From an uncultured Aquimarina sp. (GTDB lineage Bacteria > Bacteroidota > Bacteroidia > Flavobacteriales > Flavobacteriaceae), in assembly GCA_947498595.1 (NCBI GenBank), contig CANMKX010000002.1, forward strand, positions 124,001 to 188,000: a stretch of 64,000 nucleotides of DNA. The letters are read 5' to 3'. Both the position numbers and the translations under genes were made by a program. Below the pieces are notes generated by a model. It saw only the letters and a list, made by a program, of their open reading frames with translations, searched no databases and was not told where the DNA came from. Shown in pieces: positions 17,744 to 55,052 of the stretch (positions are counted from its first letter, which is position 1; each line of letters starts with the position of its first letter).

Positions 17744-17879
17744 AAAATAATCATCAAGCATTAATCAATTTGTTTTTGGTATGTTTTAGAAGAGAAACAA
17801 AAAAAGCTTCATATTTCTATGAAGCTTTTTCTTAGTAGCGGGAACTGGACTCGAACCAGTGACCTTCGGGTTATGAGCC
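17744..17879. repeat. attL plus extended tRNA-flank repeat
   Basis: Matches 54884-55023 with a few mismatches; last 47 bp identical. Confidence 0.85.
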
Positions 17880-18048: not shown

Positions 18049-19389
18049 ATGGCATCAGTAAAGATAATACTTTGGAAGCATGATAAGAAAAAAGATGGTT
18101 CTTGTCCTTTAGCTCTGAGAATTACCAAAAATAGAAAACCGAGATATATTTTTACAGGAGAATATATTTTTGAGAAGGATTGGGATACAAAAGCAAGTAA
18201 AGTAAAAAAGTCTCATCCCAATTCTACTCGCCTTAATAATTTGCTACTAAAAAAGCTCAGTGAAGCCCATGCAACACTATTAGAGACAGAAATAAGGGAC
18301 GAAAACTTAACCACTAAACAAATACAAACAAAAGTTAAAAGAAAAGGCTCTAATGTCTCCTTTTTTCAACTAGCATCGGATAGAATTAAAGATAAGTACG
18401 AAAAAGGAACTTTTTCAGTAGCAAGAGCTGAACTTTCTATACTTCATAACATACAAGAATTTTTAATATATAATCCTGCTGATCCTAAATTATTGGTTAT
18501 AGATAAAATTAGAGAACGACGAAAAAATCGTATTTCTAAGGCTCGTAAATATCAAAATTCTGTTACTGATGAAATAAGGTTTTTTTCAAAGAATAAAAAC
18601 TTATTATTTCAAGATATTAATAATAGTTTTATTAATAAATACAAAATTTTTTGTTCTTCTTATTTAGAGCAAAAAACAAGAACTATAACGAATCAATTAA
18701 TATTTATACGCACGCTTTATAATTCAGCGATAAAAGAGGGGATAGCAAATAAAAAAGATTATCCTTTTGCGGGAGAAAACGAAAAAATAAAAATCAAATC
18801 GAGTAATAAAATTGGGCTTACTAAACGAGAAATAGAAAAAATAGAAAATTTGCAATTAGAGCCAAACACTCCAATCTGGCATACAAAAAACGTATTCTTA
18901 TTTTCATACTATTTTGCAGGAGTTCGTATTTCTGATGTATTAGAGCTTAAATGGTTCAACTTTGTAGATGGTAGACTTTACTATGAAATGAATAAAAATG
19001 AAAAACCTGTGAGCTTAAAAATTCCTGAGAAAGCATTAGGCATACTATCTTTGTATGCAAAAAGTAAAGAAAATAACGCTGATTATGTTTTTCCGTTTCT
19101 CAAAAAAGCAGATCAAAACAACAAAGAAGATATTTTTATAAAAACTCGCAACGCATCTAAGCTTTTTAATAAGTACCTGAAGCGAATTGCAGAAAAATGC
19201 AACATAGAAAAAAACCTATCAAACCATATAGCTCGTCATACATTCGGAAACATTGCTGGTGATAAAATAAACCCTTTGATGCTTCAAAAGCTATATCGCC
19301 ATAGTAATCTAAAAACTACTATAAACTATCAAGCTAATTTTATTCATAAAGAAGCGGATGATGCTTTGGACATGGTTTTAAATTCTTAA
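18049..19389 (+). CDS. Tyrosine-type site-specific integrase
   Basis: Catalytic pattern 'AGVRISDVLELKWF', 'NHIARHTFGNIAGDK', 'LYRHSNLKTTINYQ'. Confidence 0.92.
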   Translation: MASVKIILWKHDKKKDGSCPLALRITKNRKPRYIFTGEYIFEKDWDTKASKVKKSHPNSTRLNNLLLKKLSEAHATLLETEIRDENLTTKQIQTKVKRKGSNVSFFQLASDRIKDKYEKGTFSVARAELSILHNIQEFLIYNPADPKLLVIDKIRERRKNRISKARKYQNSVTDEIRFFSKNKNLLFQDINNSFINKYKIFCSSYLEQKTRTITNQLIFIRTLYNSAIKEGIANKKDYPFAGENEKIKIKSSNKIGLTKREIEKIENLQLEPNTPIWHTKNVFLFSYYFAGVRISDVLELKWFNFVDGRLYYEMNKNEKPVSLKIPEKALGILSLYAKSKENNADYVFPFLKKADQNNKEDIFIKTRNASKLFNKYLKRIAEKCNIEKNLSNHIARHTFGNIAGDKINPLMLQKLYRHSNLKTTINYQANFIHKEADDALDMVLNS

Positions 19390-28786: not shown

Positions 28787-28985
28787 TAAGTTCAGCTTTT
28801 ATACTTTCCCAAGATTGCCCTTGATCTTGTTCTGCTGCCATTCGTTGATCAAGTAATCTTTTATGTTCTTCAGGCATCACATAATTCTTTTGCTCTGTTA
28901 AAGAGATTTCCAGTCTCAATTCATCAAAATTCTTGAAATGCGTTTTAGAAAGTTTTAAATCCGAATCCACAACAATATGTACCAT
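28767..28985 (-). CDS. Antitoxin of ParE-type module
   Basis: 72-aa ORF overlapping toxin start; addiction-module-like 'RLLDQRMAAEQDQGQSWESIKAELSAKY'. Confidence 0.7.
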   Translation of the reverse strand: MVHIVVDSDLKLSKTHFKNFDELRLEISLTEQKNYVMPEEHKRLLDQRMAAEQDQGQSWESIKAELSAKYAA

Positions 28986-29184
28986 ATTTCTATTATAGAA
29001 AGGTTTATGTCTTAGGTAAAGTTTTTATAGATAAAATACTTCATGTGCTTTTCACCCAAAGTTCTTAAATACCCTCAAAGCTATTCCATCATCAAGAGAA
29101 AAACAAGGATATTCCTGTGAGTTGCTCCTTGTTTTTTCTGGATATCTGGAAGTGTCGCAGAGTGTATTTAATAACACTTTTAGG

Positions 29185-29553
29185 ATGAAAAAATCACAAG
29201 ACACTTCGTATCAAAATCAATTAGAAACTATCATTAACGACAACCCAAACAGTATAGAATCTGCCGTAGCTCAAACTGCTTTAGTGTATAACGAAGACGA
29301 CGATATCTATAACTTTTTCCAAAATCTACTCCAATACGGATGCATTTCTGGAATGGTTTCAGAACTTGTATACTACTGCGATACCCACACGTTTTACGAT
29401 TTACATTATGCCCAAATAGAAGAAATTCGTAGAAGCTATGAGCAAGAAACAGGAATGCCGATTCATACCGAAAACGATTACAAGAATCACATGGCATGGT
29501 TTACGTATGAATATGTAGCGTATCAGATAGCACAAAAGCTTGGGGTATGGTGA
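29185..29553 (+). CDS. DUF7222-like small protein, intact copy
   Basis: Start at MKKSQDTSYQ rather than listed 29122; C-terminal part duplicated at 32685-32812. Confidence 0.6.
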   Translation: MKKSQDTSYQNQLETIINDNPNSIESAVAQTALVYNEDDDIYNFFQNLLQYGCISGMVSELVYYCDTHTFYDLHYAQIEEIRRSYEQETGMPIHTENDYKNHMAWFTYEYVAYQIAQKLGVW

Positions 29554-29762
29554 TGCCCCAGTTTTTTATATGAAGATGCTGTGATCTAAGTGAATTACAC
29601 TTTTGACAGTGTTGGAGTAATTTTTAAAGAGGAACTCTTTCTCCGTTCAACGAAAAGTTTCATTCAATTGGGGTGTTTATAGCTCTTTTTTATTCTCCAG
29701 AAGATGCTGTTTTTATGATCTTTTTTAATCCAAAATGATTTTAAAAAAATGAGAAGAGACAC

Positions 29763-29927
29763 CTCCTATACACAGGCAAAGATAGCCTTACCCCCTATGC
29801 GAGCAAGACCAAGCGAGAATCATAATATTTTTTGGATTTCATCTGCAAAAAATATCGCGCCTGTCTTGCTTTTTCCTTTCTGTGGCTACAAAAAGCCCGT
29901 TATAGGAGCAACATCAATCTCGCTCCT
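29763..29927 (+). ncRNA. Candidate structured RNA/DNA element, copy 1
   Basis: CTCCTATA(29763-29770)/TATAGGAG(29901-29908); AGCAAGAC/GTCTTGCT; ATATTTTTTG/CAAAAAATAT; alternative AGGAGC/GCTCCT (29904-29909/29922-29927). Confidence 0.55.
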
Positions 29928-29966
29928 CTTTAAGAAACAATATATATAATTTAAAATGTTAGAATT

Positions 29967-30364
29967 ATGGCAACAGCAGTAAAAAACGGAAGTACAAAAA
30001 AGGCTACAATGGCAAATGCTCAACTGAAAGAAAAATTAGCTGAAGAAGCCACGGAAACAGTATCAAAAGCGACTCCACAACCGCCAAAAGAAGCAGTAAT
30101 AACGCTGGATGAAAGAATCGCAAAGTTTAAGAAACTACAAGGACTCAACAATCAAAGAGACCGTTTAGTGAGTACATTAGAGAGCTTGCAAACTTTAATC
30201 TCAACCAAGACTTCTCATCTACATTTTTGCTTAGAGATTCTGCGGGATTGGAATTTAAGGCAAACAATTCGAATCTGATACAAATTGTAGCTACGGGTTT
30301 ACAAAGAACATTAGAACAACGTAAAAATGAGTTAGAAAAGCAGATTTTAGAATTTGTGCTTTAA
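29967..30364 (+). pseudogene. Frameshifted paralog of 33231-33641
   Basis: MATAVKNGSTKK... matches intact copy until a 1-nt deletion near 30195; the other frame then encodes NFNLNQDFSSTFLLRDSAGLEFKANNSNLIQ...LEKQILEFVL. Confidence 0.8.
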
Positions 30365-30483
30365 ACCAATTTAACTCAAAAATGAGTCCTTTATGGAAAA
30401 CTATAAAGGACTCGTTTATATTAAAACCAGAATAAGATTCCTCATAAGGTAATCTATATAATAATTTTTTAAGATACTTTTCT

Positions 30484-31611
30484 TTAGAAACCTTTTAAAT
30501 ATTCTATATAATTATTATATATTTTAGTTTTTTCTTTCTCTAAAAGATTAAGAAGTTTTTTTTTGACTTTTCTTTTATCGGATGAAGGAATATTATTTTT
30601 TAAATTAAAAGAACCAATATTAATTTCAAATTCAGCTTTATTTCCAATTTTTTCAAAATATGGAAATCCAAAATTTACAGAAAGATTACCTTCCGCGAGT
30701 TCGTAATTAAAATTAAATTTCACTTCCATTCCCCAACATTTAATATATTTATGGTACTTTTTCTCTTTAAAAAAGAAATCTTTTTGAATGCCTTTTCCTT
30801 TAAAGATTAAAGTATCTTTATCTGACATCCAATCAATTTCTTTAGGAAGATCAGAATCTTCATCTGCTTTAAAATGAACATCAATTATATCGTCAAAATT
30901 AAAGAAAGAATTATTCATTTTATTTGATAATCTAAGAAAAAAAATTATCCTTGTTTCATTGTTGAAGTCTCCGAAATAAATCTTTTTTATTTCCTCTTTT
31001 GGAGCTATTGAATTAGTTTTTTTAAAATGATCTAATACAATGTTTTCAATAACATTGGCAACCTTTAAAGTTTCTTGAGAGGTATACTCTTTGATTATTT
31101 TAATAGAAGAGCCACCTTCTTGTTTTTCTATAATTAAATTACCAGAAAATAAATTACTAGATTCATACCAACTTTTATTAAAGTCTTGTCGTATTATTTC
31201 AAAATTTAAGACAACTTTATCATTCAGTTTAGATTCCTTATAAAAGGGAGATAATTTATTAACTTTGAAATTGATTAAATTAAAATCAATTTTATCATTA
31301 ATATTGATTGTATCTGGAACTATATTAATTAATTCTTCTTGAGAGTTGAATGATATTGTACCTGTTGAAGATTTTGTATTATCTTCTTTTGTATTTAATT
31401 GATCTTTTAAAAATTCAAACTCATTTGGACTTAACAATATGGTACTAAGGAAAGGGACATATTTTTCTTTTGAATTATGATTAAAAAAAACACCTCTCTT
31501 GCGTAATATTTCTTTTAAATCCGATTTAGAAAGTAGAGATTGATTAACAAATCCTCTTAAAAACTCACCTTGTGGTAATATTTTATCTATATGTTTATAT
31601 GGATCTATCAT
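30484..31611 (-). CDS. GapS4b-like protein of candidate two-gene antiphage system
   Basis: 'ILPQGEFLRGFVNQSLLSKSDLKEILRKRGVFFNHNSKEKYVPFLSTILLSPNEFEFL'; 4-nt overlap with upstream gene; family recalled from memory. Confidence 0.5.
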   Translation of the reverse strand: MIDPYKHIDKILPQGEFLRGFVNQSLLSKSDLKEILRKRGVFFNHNSKEKYVPFLSTILLSPNEFEFLKDQLNTKEDNTKSSTGTISFNSQEELINIVPDTININDKIDFNLINFKVNKLSPFYKESKLNDKVVLNFEIIRQDFNKSWYESSNLFSGNLIIEKQEGGSSIKIIKEYTSQETLKVANVIENIVLDHFKKTNSIAPKEEIKKIYFGDFNNETRIIFFLRLSNKMNNSFFNFDDIIDVHFKADEDSDLPKEIDWMSDKDTLIFKGKGIQKDFFFKEKKYHKYIKCWGMEVKFNFNYELAEGNLSVNFGFPYFEKIGNKAEFEINIGSFNLKNNIPSSDKRKVKKKLLNLLEKEKTKIYNNYIEYLKGF

Positions 31612-32522
31612 CTCAAATAAGAAAAAAGTTTAATATTAGATTTTGCATAACTTTCATTGAATGAAAGTAAGGCTGTGTGTATCATGTTTTTATGCCTCAA
31701 TTCATTATAATCGGGAAAACCTATGAAAGTTTTTGAAGCCCATCCTTGTGATATTTCAAGGGAAAGCCCTACTAACCTTTTAAAATCAGATACATTGAAA
31801 TTATCTTTTGTACATATATATAAGTTAGATTGATTATTATTAATTATTTCTTTAAAAACTAAAATATTAGAGGTTAAAAATTCTACAGGCATAATATTAC
31901 CAGAAAATTGTCTTTCATTTGGATTTAAATTTTTACCAGTTGAAGGATAGTAGAATTCTAATTTGTTAGAACCTATTTTAAGTTTAATAGCATCAATACT
32001 TCTTTTAATGAAATAATATGAACTATTACTGAACACTAAAATTTTTTCAAAATTTAAATCTTCTGTAAATCTAGTCGTAGAAATCTCATTTAATAAACTA
32101 TCATCTTTTTCCGAAGGAGAATTACTTAGCCAAACTAATATTCCTAATGTATTTATATTATTGTAATAATCAAAACCAGAAATTAAATTTGATCTAACTT
32201 GAGATTTTTTGTAGCACTCTAAACTATTTGCTAAATCAACAAAAAATGGTTTAAAAGTACCTCTAGGAGCATCGGGATATTCTTTATCACTATATTTGAC
32301 AGAAATAAAAATATCAACGAGTTCTCCTTCAACTAGAGGTGATTTATATATAAAACCAAGATCTAAACCATGAGTTCCTCTTTCAAGACTTTTTTTATGA
32401 TTCGAAGGAGTAACACAGTCGATAGTCATTCCTTCATTTAAAACGTCCCATCCAACTTTATTAAAAAAATCTAAAGTGATTTTTTCACCATATTCACCAA
32501 TTTTTTTGGCTAATTCACCCAT
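31608..32522 (-). CDS. GapS4a-like putative PD-(D/E)xK nuclease
   Basis: 'GEYGEKITLDFFNKVGWDVLNEGMTIDC...THGLDLGFIYKSPLVEGELVDIFISVKYSDKEYP' (D..xVK nuclease-like core). Confidence 0.5.
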   Translation of the reverse strand: MGELAKKIGEYGEKITLDFFNKVGWDVLNEGMTIDCVTPSNHKKSLERGTHGLDLGFIYKSPLVEGELVDIFISVKYSDKEYPDAPRGTFKPFFVDLANSLECYKKSQVRSNLISGFDYYNNINTLGILVWLSNSPSEKDDSLLNEISTTRFTEDLNFEKILVFSNSSYYFIKRSIDAIKLKIGSNKLEFYYPSTGKNLNPNERQFSGNIMPVEFLTSNILVFKEIINNNQSNLYICTKDNFNVSDFKRLVGLSLEISQGWASKTFIGFPDYNELRHKNMIHTALLSFNESYAKSNIKLFSYLR

Positions 32523-32684
32523 AGTTTATGATTTTAATGATTAATAGATTAGATTATTTATATCAATGATTTAATCTATAGGGCAATGATATAAATAGAA
32601 TTGTAAAATGTAATTTAGAAATCGAATATACTAAAAAAAACACTTGTATTATTGAAAAGAAACTATGCTTGCATAAAATCAAAA

Positions 32685-32812
32685 ATTCGTAGAAGCTATG
32701 AGCAAGAAACAGGAATGCCGATTCATACCGAAAACGACTACAAAAATCACATGGCATGGTTTGCGTATGAATATGTAGCGTATCAAATAGTACAAAAGCT
32801 TGGAGTATTTTA
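32685..32812 (+). pseudogene. 5'-truncated copy of the DUF7222-like gene
   Basis: aattcgtagaagctatgagcaagaaacaggaatgccgattcatacc... nearly identical to 29426-29553, no N-terminal part. Confidence 0.85.
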
Positions 32813-33027
32813 ATACTCTGAGTTTTAAAAGATGAAGATTCGAAGATATAAGCATAATGAACTTTTAGCAGTCCTAGAGAGTAAATCAAAGAGGGGATTT
32901 GCCCTTTATTAAACAAGATGTTTCATTTTAATAGCGTGTAGTTACGAATTATTTCCTCTTCCGTTTTATAAGCCTGTTTCGTGTCTTTTTTATAAATACA
33001 TGATAGACCAAGAATGATGAAAGATAA

Positions 33028-33192
33028 CTCCCATACACAGGCAAAGATAGCCTGCGCCAACCGCATGGGCAAGACCAAGCGAGAGTCACGCTATTTTTTG
33101 GATTTCATCCGCAAAAAATAGCGCGCCTGTCTTGCTTTTTCCTTTCTACGGCAACAAAAAGCCTGTTATGGGAGCAATATCAACATCGCTCC
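33028..33192 (+). ncRNA. Candidate structured RNA/DNA element, copy 2
   Basis: CTCCCATA(33028-33035)/TATGGGAG(33167-33174); GCAAGAC(33069-33075)/GTCTTGC(33129-33135); CGCTATTTTTTG(33089-33100)/CAAAAAATAGCG(33112-33123); alternative GGAGC/GCTCC (33171-33175/33188-33192). Confidence 0.55.
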
Positions 33193-33230
33193 TAATAGAT
33201 AATCAAGTATAACTTATAAAAGAGACCATT

Positions 33231-33641
33231 ATGGCAACAGCAGTAAAAAACGGAAGAGGAAAAAAGGAAACAGCAACGGCAAACACGCAATTAAAAGAAA
33301 AATTAGCACAACAAGCCGTAGGCGCATCAACCAAAACGCTTCCAACACCCGTAGAACAGCCAAAAGAGCCTGTAATAACCTTAGACGATAGAATTGCAAA
33401 ATTCAAGAAACTACAGGGATTAAATAACCAAAGAGAGCGTTTGGTAGAAACTTTGGAGAACCTATCTAATTTTAATCTCAACCAAGATTTTTCATCTACA
33501 TTTTTGTTAAGGGATTCTGGAGGATTAGAATTTAAAACTAACAATTCCAACTTGATACAATTGGTGACGAATCAATTACAAACGACGCTAGAACATCGCA
33601 GAGCGGAATTGGAAAAGCAGATTCTCGAATTTAATCTATAA
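33231..33641 (+). CDS. Small conserved protein downstream of structured element (136 aa)
   Basis: Intact copy; 'ITLDDRIAKFKKLQGLNNQRERLVETLENLSNFNLNQDFSSTFLLRDSGGLEFKTNNSNLI'. Confidence 0.75.
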   Translation: MATAVKNGRGKKETATANTQLKEKLAQQAVGASTKTLPTPVEQPKEPVITLDDRIAKFKKLQGLNNQRERLVETLENLSNFNLNQDFSSTFLLRDSGGLEFKTNNSNLIQLVTNQLQTTLEHRRAELEKQILEFNL

Positions 33642-33794: not shown

Positions 33795-34063
33795 TATATC
33801 TGATTTATAATTGATTATAGGTAAATATAGCATTTTTTTGAACTCTGAAATCAAAATCTGACGTTTTGAGAAAAAACTTGGGTGAAAACACGGACATTAT
33901 TTAGTTGATTTTGGTATAAAATGGCACAAAAGTACCTCGAAAATAATTGATTTTCACTCTATTATTTTCAGAAAGATAGGTTTAGTTTTGGGCTATAAAT
34001 CAAGTGCTTAAAGCAATAAAGACAAAGAATATAATCTAACAATAATTAAGAAAATATTACACC

Positions 34064-34273
34064 ATGAAAGTAAAAACGTTTTTTTACAGCATTCTTTTTT
34101 TATTTTTAGCAACACCACTTTTTATAGGTTGTGAAGCCGAAAATATAAATGACGAAATACAAAAGGATGAAACACTTAACAGAACCACAGAATACATCAA
34201 CTCAATCAGACCAGACGAAGTTGAAGACCCAGGAAGTCGAGGGAATGGAGACATCTGGGCAGACGAAGAATAA
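34064..34273 (+). CDS. Small lipoprotein
   Basis: Signal peptide with lipobox 'FIGCEAE'; acidic C-terminus 'DPGSRGNGDIWADEE'. Confidence 0.6.
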   Translation: MKVKTFFYSILFLFLATPLFIGCEAENINDEIQKDETLNRTTEYINSIRPDEVEDPGSRGNGDIWADEE

Positions 34274-36733: not shown

Positions 36734-38572
36734 ATGATACACCCAAAAACAAGATTGAGTATAGACGGAAAAAACATACCCTATTTTGATGCGATCTCGC
36801 TGACTCAAAGTATGAATGATCATCATTCATTTAGGATTCAATTAGATAATGATGTGATTGAGAAAACAGGCAGTCATACGATAGATGCTTCTAGAAATTG
36901 GTTAGGAAAAGTGGTTATTATAACCTTTGATGAGACTGATTTTTTAGGCATTATCACCGAGATTAATCTCGCGAATGATAATGGGCATCATGGCAATCTG
37001 ATTCTCGAAGGATATTCGCCAACAATATTATTAGAAGGAGGCGAAGATATGCGCTCATGGAAAGAGAAACGTCTGGAGCAAATCGTAAAAGAAATCTTGG
37101 GGGTATTAACGATAAAAAAGAAAATAGCACCAAGATTTAAAGACAAAATGCCGTATCAGGTGCAATACAAAGAGCATCATTTTCAGTTCTTACAACGGCT
37201 TGCCAAGCAGTATAACGAGTGGTTTTATTACGATGGGTTGAGTATAGTTTTTGGAGCACCAAAATGGCGGGATGCGGTAACGGTAGAATATGGACGAGAG
37301 ATTGATGAGTTGTATTTACAAATGCGAGTGAAAGATCATACGCAGCAGATGTACAGCTATAATGCTATGGATAATAGAGTTGTAAATGCAAAGTCAAAAA
37401 ATGCGGTTGCAGGCTTAAATGAACTAGGAATGCATGCTTTTCAGGCATCAAGTAAATTGTATGTAAATCGGAAAAATAGCTTTAGCGATATAGATGCTAA
37501 AGACAAATATTTGATAGATGGCGTAGCCGAAAGGAAGCAAGCGCAAGCAGCGGCAAGACTGCATGTATTGAGAGGAAAAGGACATAAACAAGGATTAACT
37601 ATCGGATCTGTTATTAAAGTAGATTCTGCGAAAAACGAAGGCAAAAAATTATTTAAAATACAGAGTTATGGAAAATATGTAATAACAAGCATTACGCATA
37701 CAGTTAGTAAAGAAAATAGCTATAGTAATAGCTTTGAGGCTATTCCTTCCGAAATTAAAATTCCAGAAGAGCCCAAAGTAGCATTGCCTAAAGCTGCACC
37801 ACAATTGGCAACGGTAGTAGCTAATAAAGACGAAAAAAGCAAAGGGCGTATAAAAGTAAAAATGCAATGGCAGCTTGGGGATATGGAAACGCCATGGTTA
37901 CGAGTAATGACTCCAGATGCGGGACAAACCGATGATCATAAAGAGATCCGAGGTAATGTGGTGATTCCAGAATTAGGGGATCAAGTAATGATTGGGTTTG
38001 AGTACAATGACCCAAACAGGCCTTTTGTAATGGGGAGTATGTATCACGGGATGAACATCACCAAGGGGATGGAAAACCGAAACAGTTTAATAAGCCGTAC
38101 AGGAAGCCGTATGATAATGGATGATAATGACGGAAGTTTACAACTTACCGACAAGGGCGGTGTAGATATGAAATTTGATGGAAAGGGGAATGCAACGGCA
38201 AAAGTTAATAAAAATAATACGGTAAATACTGGAACAATAAATACATTCAATACAGGAGCAGAACAGATAATCAATGTAGGGGCAACAAAAGACAGTCCTC
38301 CTAAATCAGTTTTGAGAATGGATAAAGAGGGGAACATTATCTTAGAAAGTGATACTAGTATAGTATTTAAAGTTGGAGAAAGTATTATAAAAATTACTGA
38401 ATCGGAAATAAAAACGATGATCGCAAATGGTAATATGACTACCGAAGCAACAAACGGAGAACATAAAATAATAGCAAAAGGGTTAGATATTACATCAAAA
38501 ACAAAGTGCCGTGTAACGTCTAAAAGTACGATGGAAATTAAAGGAAGTGAGGTAGAAATAAATAAAGGCTAA
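36734..38572 (+). CDS. vgrG: Type VI secretion VgrG-like protein
   Basis: 'HHFQFLQRLAKQYNEWFYYDG', 'DEKSKGRIKVKMQWQLGDMETPWLRVMTPDAG', 'GNVVIPELGDQVMIGFEYNDPNRPFVMGSMYHG'. Confidence 0.88.
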   Translation: MIHPKTRLSIDGKNIPYFDAISLTQSMNDHHSFRIQLDNDVIEKTGSHTIDASRNWLGKVVIITFDETDFLGIITEINLANDNGHHGNLILEGYSPTILLEGGEDMRSWKEKRLEQIVKEILGVLTIKKKIAPRFKDKMPYQVQYKEHHFQFLQRLAKQYNEWFYYDGLSIVFGAPKWRDAVTVEYGREIDELYLQMRVKDHTQQMYSYNAMDNRVVNAKSKNAVAGLNELGMHAFQASSKLYVNRKNSFSDIDAKDKYLIDGVAERKQAQAAARLHVLRGKGHKQGLTIGSVIKVDSAKNEGKKLFKIQSYGKYVITSITHTVSKENSYSNSFEAIPSEIKIPEEPKVALPKAAPQLATVVANKDEKSKGRIKVKMQWQLGDMETPWLRVMTPDAGQTDDHKEIRGNVVIPELGDQVMIGFEYNDPNRPFVMGSMYHGMNITKGMENRNSLISRTGSRMIMDDNDGSLQLTDKGGVDMKFDGKGNATAKVNKNNTVNTGTINTFNTGAEQIINVGATKDSPPKSVLRMDKEGNIILESDTSIVFKVGESIIKITESEIKTMIANGNMTTEATNGEHKIIAKGLDITSKTKCRVTSKSTMEIKGSEVEINKG

Positions 38573-39423
38573 TGAAAAACGCAATTACATTAGTACTCAG
38601 TCCTACCTTTAAAAAGAAGACCTATAAAATACTAAGACAAGAAAAGCATTTTTTTCAAGGAATTCATAGCGAAAATGCTATTGAAATAATAGTAATCGTT
38701 GAATTCTTAAAGCAGCTGTCAAATGGTAATAATCAGTTTAGAGTTATACAAAAAGAATACCAGCAAAGCAATCAAAAGGGAATGTATGCATGGGCAAAAG
38801 CTATGTCTCCAATTCATAAAGAATTTATTGTAAACATAGATAAAAATGGAATGTTAACAGAGATAGTGAATCACGATCTGATAACAATTACATGGGGAGA
38901 ATTAAAATATGATTTGAAAAAGAAATTTAGAAAATCAGATTATAAAAATCAAATGATTATTGGGATAAATAATGTTTTAAAAAATAAAATACTATTTCAC
39001 GAACTAATGAAAGATCATTATGTTTTTATGCTTTTATTCCCAACAATTTACAATGAATGTCTAAAAAAAGAAGGGGATTTAAAAACACAAAAAACACTAC
39101 ACAATTTTATTGGAAGTCGAAAAGTTCCCATTATCACCAAAAACAAATTAAAAGCAGTAGATACAGAAAATAATACGGTCGAAATAGAAGCAATTGGAGA
39201 GGTTGATAATAAAACCTTTCGACAAGATCAAGTAACAAGTATGATCAAAATGTTAAAAAACAGACCTCGTGTGCCTACTACACTACGTTTTAATCATACA
39301 GAGCGATATCTACTTGATAAGGATCATTCACCTATACAGGCTATGATGCTAAGCCTATTACGTATTCCAGGGACATTATATCGAGAAGAAAAAACAATGA
39401 TAAAGCAGATCGACGAGATATGA
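38572..39423 (+). CDS. Hypothetical protein in T6SS effector operon (possible adaptor/chaperone)
   Basis: Start overlaps vgrG stop; co-directional. Confidence 0.6.
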   Translation: MKNAITLVLSPTFKKKTYKILRQEKHFFQGIHSENAIEIIVIVEFLKQLSNGNNQFRVIQKEYQQSNQKGMYAWAKAMSPIHKEFIVNIDKNGMLTEIVNHDLITITWGELKYDLKKKFRKSDYKNQMIIGINNVLKNKILFHELMKDHYVFMLLFPTIYNECLKKEGDLKTQKTLHNFIGSRKVPIITKNKLKAVDTENNTVEIEAIGEVDNKTFRQDQVTSMIKMLKNRPRVPTTLRFNHTERYLLDKDHSPIQAMMLSLLRIPGTLYREEKTMIKQIDEI

Positions 39424-39689
39424 AAATACCTATAGAAAATATAGTGAATAATCATAGGCGGTATTTTATTTTGATTGATTCAAAAATAAAAATACCAAAA
39501 GAAGTAAAATATAAGACGAGAGGTAAAATAATATCTGATACTACATCAATAGTGGTAACAGTGAAATTATTTAAGCCCTATAAAATACAAGGAGAACTAT
39601 CGTGGATTCTAGAGAGTGATGCAGATTTATCATCATTAATAGGATATCCATTTGAAGAGCATAATGTGTTTTTGGCACTAGAAGTTTAA
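39420..39689 (+). CDS. Hypothetical protein in T6SS effector operon
   Basis: ATGA overlap with 38572-39423. Confidence 0.55.
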   Translation: MKIPIENIVNNHRRYFILIDSKIKIPKEVKYKTRGKIISDTTSIVVTVKLFKPYKIQGELSWILESDADLSSLIGYPFEEHNVFLALEV

Positions 39690-39722
39690 GAGTAACCAAG
39701 GAATCATAAAAATGAAAAACAA

Positions 39723-41276
39723 ATGGCAAAGAAATATGTGCCAGATGGAGTGTTTTTGGCGTGTGATAAAGGCACATGTCCATCAACTTTCAAAGTAACC
39801 AATCATAAAAAAACGACAATATATAATTCTCCTATGGCAACAGAAGGAGACTTATTTCCGTTTTTTAATATTAAGCCTATGGGATTTTGTACAAATCCTG
39901 CAAAAATATTAGCTACAGGTGCTATGTGCACTCCAGTAGTATTACAATGGGAAAAACCTAAAGATGGAGTCACGATTGATGGTAAAAGACTATTATTAGA
40001 AGATTCTACGTGTAAATGTACTCTTGGTGGTGGTGAAATATCAATACATTTTGATATAGCCTCAGCGAATACGATAGCAGTATGGGGCGGCATGAAGATG
40101 CCAACTGAATATATAAAAGAAGGTTTTGATTGGGCGTTTGCAACGATTGAAGAATCGAGAGCCGAGAGAAATAAGTATTTGCCCGAATGGATGGAGCCAG
40201 TGGCAGATGTCCATGATTGGTTTGATGATATGACCTTAGCGTTATTAGAAGGAGCAGTTACAGGTGTAGTTGGATTAGGAGAAGTAGTATATCAAGTAGC
40301 GCAAGACCCAGTTGGAATGGGCGAAGCTCTTTATGATATGGCAGAAGAAGCGTATCAGTGGCAAGATCAGAAGAAAATGGAAGCTCTTTTATGGATGAGT
40401 AAGAAGGAAAATTGGGAAGCTACAGGTGATGCCACATGGGATTGGCTAACGGAAGAAGGGAGTTTATCAAGTACTGCAAAAGAAGCTTGGGAAGGAGTAG
40501 AAAATGCAGTATCTTCGGGTACAGATTGGCTTGCTAAGAACCCACGAAAGCTAGGAACAGTTGTAGGCGAATTTGTTCCTGATGCAGTAGGTGCAGCATA
40601 CACAGGAGGTGCTACAGTAGCCTTGACGGCAGGAAAGAAAATAGTAAAAGAAGTAGGCGAAGAAATTGTAGAAGAAGTAGTAGAGAAAGTTGCAAAAGAA
40701 GCTGTAGAAGAAGCCAGCGAAGCTGCGAGTAAAAAGGCGATAAAAGAAGTAGCAGAAGAAGTAGTCGAGGAAACAGGAAAAGATCTTCCGAAGGTGGTTA
40801 CGAAGGATGCGGATGAGGTGGCTGAATTAAAAATGCTACCTCCTCCAAAAGTAACTACCAAAAAGACATTAAAGCAAGTAAGAAATTTAAGAGGTAGAAA
40901 AAAATGGGAAGCTGGAGAGGAGTATGTTCAAGATCTATATGGTTCTAATGGGCAAAAACATTATACAGTTCCTAAAGACGGTGAAATAACAGGTACTGGA
41001 GGGCGTCATGTCGATGCACCTGTAGAAATACTAAATAATGGTATTCTCGCTATTGAAGTAAAAACGTATAATAGATATATTACTGTAGAAGGAGCGGTTA
41101 AAGTAAATGAAGTACCTTTAAGTAATTCTATCAAACAACAAATATTAAAAGATGTTTGGCTAAGAGATAACATAAATGGATACGATCCTAGATGGATATT
41201 TTTAGATGCACCACCAAGTTCTCAATTATCTGATTTTTTGCAACAAAAAAATATAATATCTATAATATATAATTAA
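39723..41276 (+). CDS. PAAR-like (DUF4280) polymorphic toxin with C-terminal PD-(D/E)xK-like nuclease domain
   Basis: N-term 'VPDGVFLACDKGTCPSTFKV...MGFCTNPAKILATGAMCTPVV'; C-term 'GGRHVDAPVEILNNGILAIEVKTYNRY'. Confidence 0.8.
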   Translation: MAKKYVPDGVFLACDKGTCPSTFKVTNHKKTTIYNSPMATEGDLFPFFNIKPMGFCTNPAKILATGAMCTPVVLQWEKPKDGVTIDGKRLLLEDSTCKCTLGGGEISIHFDIASANTIAVWGGMKMPTEYIKEGFDWAFATIEESRAERNKYLPEWMEPVADVHDWFDDMTLALLEGAVTGVVGLGEVVYQVAQDPVGMGEALYDMAEEAYQWQDQKKMEALLWMSKKENWEATGDATWDWLTEEGSLSSTAKEAWEGVENAVSSGTDWLAKNPRKLGTVVGEFVPDAVGAAYTGGATVALTAGKKIVKEVGEEIVEEVVEKVAKEAVEEASEAASKKAIKEVAEEVVEETGKDLPKVVTKDADEVAELKMLPPPKVTTKKTLKQVRNLRGRKKWEAGEEYVQDLYGSNGQKHYTVPKDGEITGTGGRHVDAPVEILNNGILAIEVKTYNRYITVEGAVKVNEVPLSNSIKQQILKDVWLRDNINGYDPRWIFLDAPPSSQLSDFLQQKNIISIIYN

Positions 41277-41284
41277 AAACATAA

Positions 41285-41752
41285 ATGGATTTAACACCAG
41301 AACAACAAAGAATAATTCATGAAAGAGAAGTGAAATTTGAAGCCTTTTTAGAATCAAGATTTTCTGCATTAAAAAATTTTGCAGAAGACCTAGGATTTGA
41401 TAATCCACATGAAATATTATTAGAGGCAGAAAAATTTTTACACCCTATAAGTGAATACTTAAAAGACCAAGAAATAGATGATGAAGATAGAAATTGGATT
41501 ACAACTATTATAGGTTATTTTATTGGTGAGTTATTTGCTCAAAAATATAATGGTGCTTGGCTTATTGAAAAAAATGGCACATCATCAAAATTTGGAAGAT
41601 ACATCATTGGGCAAATGAGCGATCAAGGAAGACAAATACATGGCACAGTGGATTCTTTTGAGATTGCTCGTACGTATTTATTAGAGCCAATAAACAGGGA
41701 CTTAGAAAAAATAGTATTGAAAGAAAGAGATCAATTATATGTTTCGGAATAA
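41285..41752 (+). CDS. Candidate immunity protein 1
   Basis: Immediately follows the toxin (8 bp); acidic small protein. Confidence 0.6.
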   Translation: MDLTPEQQRIIHEREVKFEAFLESRFSALKNFAEDLGFDNPHEILLEAEKFLHPISEYLKDQEIDDEDRNWITTIIGYFIGELFAQKYNGAWLIEKNGTSSKFGRYIIGQMSDQGRQIHGTVDSFEIARTYLLEPINRDLEKIVLKERDQLYVSE

Positions 41753-41830
41753 AATTTCATAAAAAATATAGTAGATATACAGAATAACAGCTTAGCCTAC
41801 TTATGAATAAAAAATTAACCTCTCAAAGTA

Positions 41831-42565
41831 ATGACCGTACGAGACACACGAAACACCATAGAAGGATATAAAGAGATTCAAGCGTTTAACGAAGAGGCTA
41901 TTGATGAATGTTATGAAGAAATAGATGAGCTAAGATTGGATGAAACAAATGAGGTTCAAAAATATCCAAAACCAAACAAAGAAATAATAGCTTCCACCTA
42001 TAAAGCGGTTTTTGATTACCAATATAAGAACTTAATTCTTTCATATTCGCTTGGAGAAGATACAGAGAAAGTGCGAAAGGAGTATGTAAAGACGGTAAAG
42101 ATGATCGCAGGGGTATGGAAAATGAGCTCGGGGTACGTGCAAATGCTGACACTAGTTTCTTTGGGGATTTTATTAGAAGTAGAGAACGAAGTCTTTTTTG
42201 ACTTACAAAAACTGGTAGAAGAATCTGAAGAGCAAGATGCTTTACTGAATTATATGATAGGGTTTAGAGAGAATAAAAAAGTACCAGGTAGTAAAGTTTT
42301 ATGGGATAAGCCGTACAAAAAACTAATACCTCTTATAGCGGAAGAAGGCGAGTTGTCGGATGCCGAAAAAGTTGATATTTTAGCAGAATATTTACAAAAG
42401 CATTGGTATAGAAACTTTGACGGGAAAGACACTCATAATACCAAATGGAACATACATATTGGCTATTGGAGTTTTGAGAGTGGAGCTTTGGTAAAAATAT
42501 TAGGTTTAGATGATACCAAACTGAAAGATCTGTCGTATTACCCATATGATTTGGTGCATAAGTAA
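41831..42565 (+). CDS. DUF1910/DUF1911-like (PoNi-like) immunity protein
   Basis: N-term 'MTVRDTRNTIEGYKEIQAFNEEAI'; C-term 'IGYWSFESGALVKILGLDDTKLKDLSYYPYDLVH'. Confidence 0.7.
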   Translation: MTVRDTRNTIEGYKEIQAFNEEAIDECYEEIDELRLDETNEVQKYPKPNKEIIASTYKAVFDYQYKNLILSYSLGEDTEKVRKEYVKTVKMIAGVWKMSSGYVQMLTLVSLGILLEVENEVFFDLQKLVEESEEQDALLNYMIGFRENKKVPGSKVLWDKPYKKLIPLIAEEGELSDAEKVDILAEYLQKHWYRNFDGKDTHNTKWNIHIGYWSFESGALVKILGLDDTKLKDLSYYPYDLVHK

Positions 42566-45962: not shown

Positions 45963-47309
45963 TTATAGGATTTTTGAAGTTAAATCTGCTTTTTTGTAGA
46001 GTTTTGATGTTTTTTTAAACCAAGGCGAAATCTTAAGCTGAATAGCATCCAGCCCATTGATATAAAGGCAGGTGAATTTGGGCATGCCAACAATCTCATC
46101 CGCACGCATGAGCGGCATTGGGCGCAACGCCCCATTAATTTCTTCGGTTTTTGTACCTAAAAGGGTTTCTACTTGTACGGCTTGTTCACGGCGTAAATTG
46201 CCAAAATAGACCTGGTTGAGCATGTTGGCTAAAATGGTTTTTGCTGCGGTTTTACCGTAGTTATTTTCTATTTGTGCAATCTCCTGAACGTAGATAAAAA
46301 GGGCTACTTTGTACTTTCGAAGTACGCTTACCATTTGAGGGAATTGAGAAATGGAATACGTTGGAAACTCGTCCAAAAACATAAAAATAGGCTTGAATTC
46401 TTTGCCTTTTTGGGGCTTTTCAAGCGCCATTTCCATCATTTGAGTATTGAAGATTGACAGCAAAAAACGGTAGTATTTTTCCTTCCCTTCCTCTATACGA
46501 AGAAACAACGCTTTTTTGTGGGTTCTAAGTGAAGATAGTTCAAGAGAATCTGTAGAAGTAAGCTGTTGTATACTTTTGCTTTTAAGCTTGCTAAGTGGTG
46601 CTTTAGCACTGGCAAGAATATTACTTTTAAGCTTAGGGTCTAAGCCCATAAACGCAGCAAAATCCATAAAGATTTCTTCAGGTATATGCTGTTCTATAAA
46701 GAGGATCGCTTCTTGAGGTTTTACGGTAATAAGATTGATTAAATGGTATAATCCCAAAAGATTCTTCTTTGTTTCATCTTGTTGACTCTCGGCCAATAAG
46801 GCGGTAAGAAGGGTTTCTACAAGTGAAATAGCGGATTGTTCCCAAAACGTTTTGGTAGTTTTAGTTTCTGGGCAGATCAATAGCTCGGCGAGTTCTTGAA
46901 TCCCGTTTTCGTTTCGTATAGTTCGTTTAAGTGGATTATACGTATCACTTTCGCTTGGATTTGAGAGGTCTAATCGAGAGATAGAATAGCCTACATTTTT
47001 TAAATGTTTACCACAGATGGATTCTAATTCGCCCGAAACATCGAGCAAAAACAGACTATAATCGTCTTTTTTTGTAATACTTAAAAGATGATTGATGATA
47101 GTGGTACTCTTGCCTGAGCCTGTTGGAGCGCAATATAATGTATGATTATACAGGTGCTTTTCGAGCAGGAAGTTTTTCCCGTCGATGCAGAATCCATTTT
47201 GAGTTGTGGTTTTAAAATATTTGTTTTTGGTACGACGGCTCATAAAGTGAGCATTTCCAAATTGGGTGTTTTCGTTTTGGTTGTTTCCAAATAATAAATC
47301 GTAGAGCAT
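45963..47309 (-). CDS. VirD4/TraG-like type IV coupling protein
   Basis: Walker A 'YCAPTGSGKSTTIINHLL', 'FMFLDEFPTYSISQFPQMVSVLRKYKVALFIYVQEIAQIENNYG'. Confidence 0.85.
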   Translation of the reverse strand: MLYDLLFGNNQNENTQFGNAHFMSRRTKNKYFKTTTQNGFCIDGKNFLLEKHLYNHTLYCAPTGSGKSTTIINHLLSITKKDDYSLFLLDVSGELESICGKHLKNVGYSISRLDLSNPSESDTYNPLKRTIRNENGIQELAELLICPETKTTKTFWEQSAISLVETLLTALLAESQQDETKKNLLGLYHLINLITVKPQEAILFIEQHIPEEIFMDFAAFMGLDPKLKSNILASAKAPLSKLKSKSIQQLTSTDSLELSSLRTHKKALFLRIEEGKEKYYRFLLSIFNTQMMEMALEKPQKGKEFKPIFMFLDEFPTYSISQFPQMVSVLRKYKVALFIYVQEIAQIENNYGKTAAKTILANMLNQVYFGNLRREQAVQVETLLGTKTEEINGALRPMPLMRADEIVGMPKFTCLYINGLDAIQLKISPWFKKTSKLYKKADLTSKIL

Positions 47310-47320
47310 AATGGTATTTT

Positions 47321-48151
47321 TTAAAGGGTTTGCGATTGATCTCGGTCATATTCTTGTTCGCTTCTTTCCATAACTTCACGGAGGAGTTCAAGACGTTCGA
47401 GTGAGGAATAGCGTTCTGGTGTAATCAGCTTTTTAAGGCGATATTTTCGGTTGTTCTTCCAAAGAACCCCGTAGTACTTGGTATTTCCTCTTGAATACGG
47501 TTCTAGTTCTGGATGTTCTTCCAAAAGTTGATGTAGATGTTGTAGGTTAACAGCCGTATCAGCTAATTGATTTACAAGCTCTATAAGTGCATTAGTGTGC
47601 GTGTGTGCTTCTGATGTTTGATAGCGCTCCTGTTCTTTGTTTTTCTCTTTTAAAAACACAATACTATCGTGAAGCTCTGGAAAGTTTTTTTGCTGGTACA
47701 TCTCCAGATCTTTGTTCTGATCTATAAATTCTTTTTTTGAAATACGAACAGATTTTGCTTGTAAAAAAAGGTTTTGACTTACAGCGAGATGAATATGAAG
47801 GCAGCCAGAACTGGGTTCTGCGTGACATTTGCCAAAAACTACACAGCGATCCATTCCGCGAAGCCGAAGAAACTCATTGGTGAGTTTCCAAAGGGCTTCT
47901 GGGCTTGGATTTGACTTGTAATGATACGATAAGATTATGTGCTGGCAGCGAGTTCGTATTTTATTGCCTCGGTACTTATCGTTTTGGATGAAGGAGTTCA
48001 CGACCGTATTACGATCCACTCCACCAGATATATTTTTAAAAATAGTAAAGTCTTGTTCGCCGTTTTGTTTATCGGTAGATCCTCGTAGAATATAGTCTAT
48101 AAGCGTCTCATATCGACCCTTGAAAGGCAGCTGTTTAACAATCATAACCAA
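47321..48151 (-). CDS. Relaxase/mobilization nuclease
   Basis: 'HIILSYHYKSNPSPEALWKLTNEFLRLRG...HAEPSSGCLHIHLAVS' HxH relaxase metal motif. Confidence 0.8.
   Translation of the reverse strand: MVMIVKQLPFKGRYETLIDYILRGSTDKQNGEQDFTIFKNISGGVDRNTVVNSFIQNDKYRGNKIRTRCQHIILSYHYKSNPSPEALWKLTNEFLRLRGMDRCVVFGKCHAEPSSGCLHIHLAVSQNLFLQAKSVRISKKEFIDQNKDLEMYQQKNFPELHDSIVFLKEKNKEQERYQTSEAHTHTNALIELVNQLADTAVNLQHLHQLLEEHPELEPYSRGNTKYYGVLWKNNRKYRLKKLITPERYSSLERLELLREVMERSEQEYDRDQSQTL

Positions 48152-54883: not shown

Positions 54884-55052
<169 letters not shown>

Follow-up and report, generated by a model that had tools for sequence, protein, structure and literature searches.

A duplicated hairpin-MATAV module around a GapS4 gene pair in a mobilizable element of an uncultured Aquimarina sp.

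Introduction

Related integrated elements, such as IMEs and ICE-derived islands, combine with each other, lose parts, and leave remnant duplicates (PMC5704250). In the Bacteroidetes, IMEs of the NBU1/Tn4555 type carry a MobP-type relaxase (PMC5704250). Defence hotspots are known in genomic islands, for example PAPI/PAGI of Pseudomonas (PMC12629846), and the proteins GapS4a and GapS4b are represented by the NCBIfam models NF047933 and NF047934.

Here, we describe a locus that resembles each of these systems in part. The window, that is, the whole stretch of 64,000 nucleotides analysed, derives from a draft assembly (296 contigs) of an uncultured Aquimarina sp. and contains an integrated mobilizable element of ~37 kb (17,833-55,023) sited in tRNA-Met. 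Like NBU1 and Tn4555, this element is integrated and has its own relaxase, and by eye we recognised no mating pore in it; unlike them, it has its own VirD4-type coupling protein, and neither the MATAV gene nor the hairpin treated below was found in descriptions of NBU1/Tn4555-type IMEs. It shares combined elements, partial loss, and remnant duplicates with the accretion and deletion of IMEs and ICE-derived islands, but accretion there uses att sites (PMC5704250), whereas the window has no internal att copy and the repeat is internal core sequence. As in the PAPI/PAGI hotspots (PMC12629846), variable defence genes lie beside conserved island genes; what sets our locus apart, as a single case, is that the conserved unit at the border is present twice and encloses one cargo. 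Finally, both GapS4 proteins match the two models over their full length and above the cut-offs, here in a mobilizable element of the Flavobacteriaceae and between two core units. The whole case is one of ordinary modular evolution in mobile elements; what is newer is the conserved hairpin-MATAV unit. The locus offers a readable case of how a defence gene pair may enter a mobilizable element, with a block exchanged between distant relatives and a scar left behind, and the unit, apparently undescribed, gives a handle for locating such elements throughout the Flavobacteriaceae and comparing them.

The element and its GapS4 cargo

The element is bounded by a 47-bp direct repeat of the 3' part of tRNA-Met: attL (17833-17879) is identical to attR (54977-55023), which lies inside the tRNA-Met gene (54979-55052, minus strand). 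A tyrosine integrase with Arm-DNA-bind_5 and Phage_integrase domains is encoded next to attL (18049-19389, plus strand). The mobilization genes comprise a MobA/VirD2-type relaxase (47321-48151, PF03432) and the VirD4-type coupling protein (45963-47309, T4SS-DNA_transf); judging the ORF lists by eye, we recognised no mating-pore genes in the element. It contains no third att copy. The likeness of attL and attR runs ~90 nt past the 47-bp repeat (17744-17879 and 54884-55023), which may be the trace of an earlier integration.

Besides the GapS4 pair, the cargo includes a Gabija pair (GajA, PDLC00069, 1e-300; GajB, PDLC00119, 1e-215) and a ParE-type toxin, the neighbour gene of which resembles an antitoxin. 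The region 36734-42565, encoding a VgrG-like protein (by inspection), a DUF4280 protein, and possible immunity genes, appears to be additional cargo, and the product of 43232-44920 matches the PADLOC models HEC-06 (1e-55) and Orf5 (4e-49) and could represent an extra defence gene.

The GapS4 genes are intact, adjacent, and both on the minus strand: gapS4b at 30484-31611 (NF047934, 1.7e-105, 353 bits against a cut-off of 300) and gapS4a at 31608-32522 (NF047933, 2e-96, 323 bits against 270). With the NCBIfam cut-offs exceeded by both full-length proteins, the two genes are predicted to be the GapS4a/GapS4b anti-phage pair. Their GC content is 24%, compared with 31-48% in the flanking modules. 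GapS4a is present in two of 397 genomes of the family, the second case not adjoining MATAV; none of these genomes supplied a donor that has GapS4 next to MATAV, nor was GapS4a found in viral contigs. A transposon-like insertion of the pair was considered and rejected, there being no inverted 9-mers at the cassette ends, and a 9-bp direct match at the cassette, TAATCTATA, fits chance in AT-rich DNA and was dismissed as an insertion sign.

Layout and ancestry of the two module copies

On either side of the intact GapS4 pair lies a module in which a DUF7222 gene is followed by a hairpin element (~150 nt) and then by a gene for a 136-aa protein that we call MATAV after its first residues. This twofold order, noted in the initial annotation, takes the form of direct repeats set 3260-3277 nt apart, an almost uniform distance. 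Identity is 95% between 29423-29548 and 32683-32808, 86% between 29803-29940 and 33069-33206, and 75-89% along the MATAV stretches; the intergenic sequence is colinear between the copies, including a terminator-like hairpin 3' of DUF7222. All features of both modules are on the plus strand.

The state of each copy was also read correctly from the start. In the left module, the DUF7222 gene is intact (29185-29553; PF23864, 6e-21; 88% amino acid identity to the relative RhTr2) and is followed by the hairpin element (29760-29912; folding z-score -3.4 against shuffled sequences, with pairs kept by compensatory changes). MATAV (29967-30363) is frameshifted here by the loss of one base near 30185, which is present both in the right copy and in RhTr2, so that its C-terminal half is readable in another frame only; a terminator-like hairpin follows at 30384-30413. 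In the right module, only the last ~43 codons of DUF7222 remain, running from an abrupt start at 32683 to the stop codon (32683-32815), whereas the hairpin element (33026-33178; z-score -4.4) is followed by an intact MATAV (33231-33641) with relatives at 22 other loci. Position 29426, previously taken as the module start, is close to the start of the repeated part, but the left module itself begins at 29185.

The initial annotation had proposed a search among relatives for elements with one intact module and no cargo. Such an element exists in RhTr2, a member of the same genus: its locus (L019) has a single intact module without GapS4, followed by the same backbone flank. Our comparison is with this one genome. 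A block of 1.57 kb (28858-30422), reaching from the start of ParD through DUF7222 and the hairpin to the MATAV terminator, is common to both elements with 87% DNA identity, fairly even along its length and similar in coding and non-coding sequence; homology stops at ~30422. The syntenic transfer genes share 25-37% amino acid identity only, indicating an anciently diverged backbone, so the left block must have been shared between the old backbones long after their split. The right MATAV (75% DNA identity to RhTr2) and the backbone flank (33850-34135, plus strand, 70%) are about equally distant from RhTr2, as if they had been inherited together. Part of this flank (33850-33990, corresponding to 8562-8660 of L019) is a conserved non-coding stretch with AATGGCACAAAAGTACC, found among the fetched loci in the window and RhTr2 elements only and possibly a regulatory or transfer-origin site. 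The cargo region of RhTr2 (L019, 4028-5822) carries a convergent pair of tyrosine-recombinase-like genes whose 3' ends overlap, upstream of the point where the RhTr2 ParD gene is cut.

The two copies differ in ancestry. A FastTree phylogeny of MATAV DNA gives (right,(RhTr2,left)) with a support of 0.987, the branch of the frameshifted left copy being longer: the left copy is RhTr2-type, while the right one lies outside this pair. Together with the identity pattern, this tree contradicts a recent in-place duplication, which we rule out. The DUF7222 remnant of the right copy, in contrast, is left-like rather than RhTr2-like at 18 of 21 informative sites (18 vs 3), compared with 37 of 199 sites (37 vs 162) downstream of it (Fisher's test, 1e-9). 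The maximum chi-square switch point falls at 32789-32791 (permutation p<0.0005), so that the right unit is a joined piece, with left-like DNA to the DUF7222 end and diverged DNA beyond. The differing ancestries and the sharp switch within the right copy support that recombination took place at the module. A single crossover is insufficient because DUF7222 (left with right) and MATAV (left with RhTr2) disagree on the nearest relative.

Origin of the arrangement

These observations are probably best explained by an RhTr2-type block that recombined in beside a resident hairpin-MATAV, with GapS4 ending up between the two and reciprocal decay following. The modules would then be differently descended copies of a core unit of the family (hairpin and MATAV, here with DUF7222). 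A ParDE-DUF7222-hairpin-MATAV block of the RhTr2 type would have been acquired from a related element through recombination and joined next to the resident hairpin-MATAV without replacing it, and one copy of each gene would have decayed later because the other sufficed. Gene conversion between the copies, or an earlier exchange, would be needed on top of a single crossover, and the cut at 32683 would be an additional, non-homologous event. We infer that the joining was done by homologous recombination and that the newly arrived piece is the left block. The position and low GC content (24%) of GapS4 make it plausible that this step, or one beside it, also brought in the pair. The original suggestion that the defence cassette entered by homologous recombination between modules is supported in part, by the cargo-free RhTr2 element, the differing histories of the copies, and the sharp switch; that GapS4 itself came in this way is an inference. 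Against our explanation stand the missing GapS4-MATAV donor, the extra event at 32683, the conflict between DUF7222 and MATAV, and the lack of any other tandem MATAV.

The direct order of the copies and their colinear intergenic sequence, down to the terminator-like hairpin 3' of DUF7222, would be expected from an old tandem duplication in one element lineage that predates its divergence from RhTr2. The latter would then have lost the right copy, GapS4 would have inserted later and non-homologously between the copies, cutting the right DUF7222, and conversion would have made the remnant left-like, which agrees with a left-like tract that stops at the gene end. We consider this history rather unlikely: it requires a clean loss in RhTr2 and does not account for a left block at 87% DNA identity to RhTr2 when the backbone is at 25-37% amino acid identity. 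Accretion followed by deletion, known from IMEs (PMC5704250), would place left-like DUF7222 sequence before the switch and different sequence after it, as observed; in this scenario, a circular element would have entered a resident relative by crossover and the second element would then have been largely deleted, so that hairpin-MATAV-GapS4 survives from one and the DUF7222 remnant-hairpin-MATAV from the other. The absence of an internal att copy excludes the site-specific form of this process, and since the left DUF7222 should be of the resident type, yet is 95% like the remnant, accretion in general seems unlikely to us. We give very little credence to the hairpin serving as the recombination substrate that brought in the cargo. 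It is conserved with compensatory changes and precedes MATAV in many elements with differing nearby cargo, but all visible junctions (30422, 32683, and 32790) lie outside it.

Distribution of the hairpin-MATAV unit

MATAV occurs in 14 of 299 genomes of the family, the window's own counted, and in six of 52 in the genus; the genomes are an evenly drawn subset of the family, and several relatives are on short contigs. In mobilizable elements of the Flavobacteriaceae, it belongs to the core genes. Neighbouring genes in several loci are SSB-like (by inspection), RadC homologues, DUF932, and a TraG-type gene, with the relaxase position occupied by a DUF5712 protein in several. No MATAV was detected in plasmids, and viral contigs gave a partial match only (36%). 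DUF7222 is rare: besides the window and RhTr2, the 397 family genomes gave two distant matches only, viral contigs none, and phages distant proteins only. Given 22 other MATAV loci and the near-absence of DUF7222, the common core unit is hairpin and MATAV only, to which DUF7222 does not belong.

Where an integrase gene precedes MATAV in the same orientation, the gap between the two is 0.19, 0.20, 0.36, 0.39, 1.9, about 5, 6.4, or 13.8 kb, which implies that the unit borders a variable cargo region. Defence and toxin-antitoxin genes near MATAV include AbiE with a helicase, a type IIG restriction gene, AbiEii with PDC-S49, NACHT-like, HipA, and ParE; with the varied distances, these differing neighbours indicate that cargo varies on both sides of the unit. 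Different cargo between two modules, the other arrangement to be looked for in relatives, was not encountered: MATAV is single-copy at all 22 other loci, none having it in tandem, so a duplicated unit is not the normal way in which cargo is held. Of the proposal that the module is a cargo-exchange site, the bordering of varying cargo by hairpin and MATAV stands; the near-absence of DUF7222, the lack of a double MATAV at 22 loci, and the lack of a second cargo case speak against the rest. The window is one unusual case within an ordinary variable region. That, in a wide family of Flavobacteriaceae mobilizable elements, the unit is dedicated to bordering the cargo region and offers a homology or even a folded single-strand site through which elements swap defence cargo, with the window as an unresolved intermediate, strikes us as quite improbable.

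A long imperfect hairpin lies 5' of MATAV in most loci. The element matches no known RNA family in Rfam, and the hairpin of locus L033 has no match in plasmids. For a class of 11 loci, RNAalifold gave 21 pairs, five of them with both-sided changes that keep the pair; their consensus energy, at -3.2 kcal/mol, is weak owing to an inner arm that varies among subtypes. In the window's class, eight of 40 pairs show both-sided compensatory changes. The hairpins at 29760-29912 and 33026-33178 and those of L026-L039 and L064-L066 are conserved and may represent an undescribed structured element.
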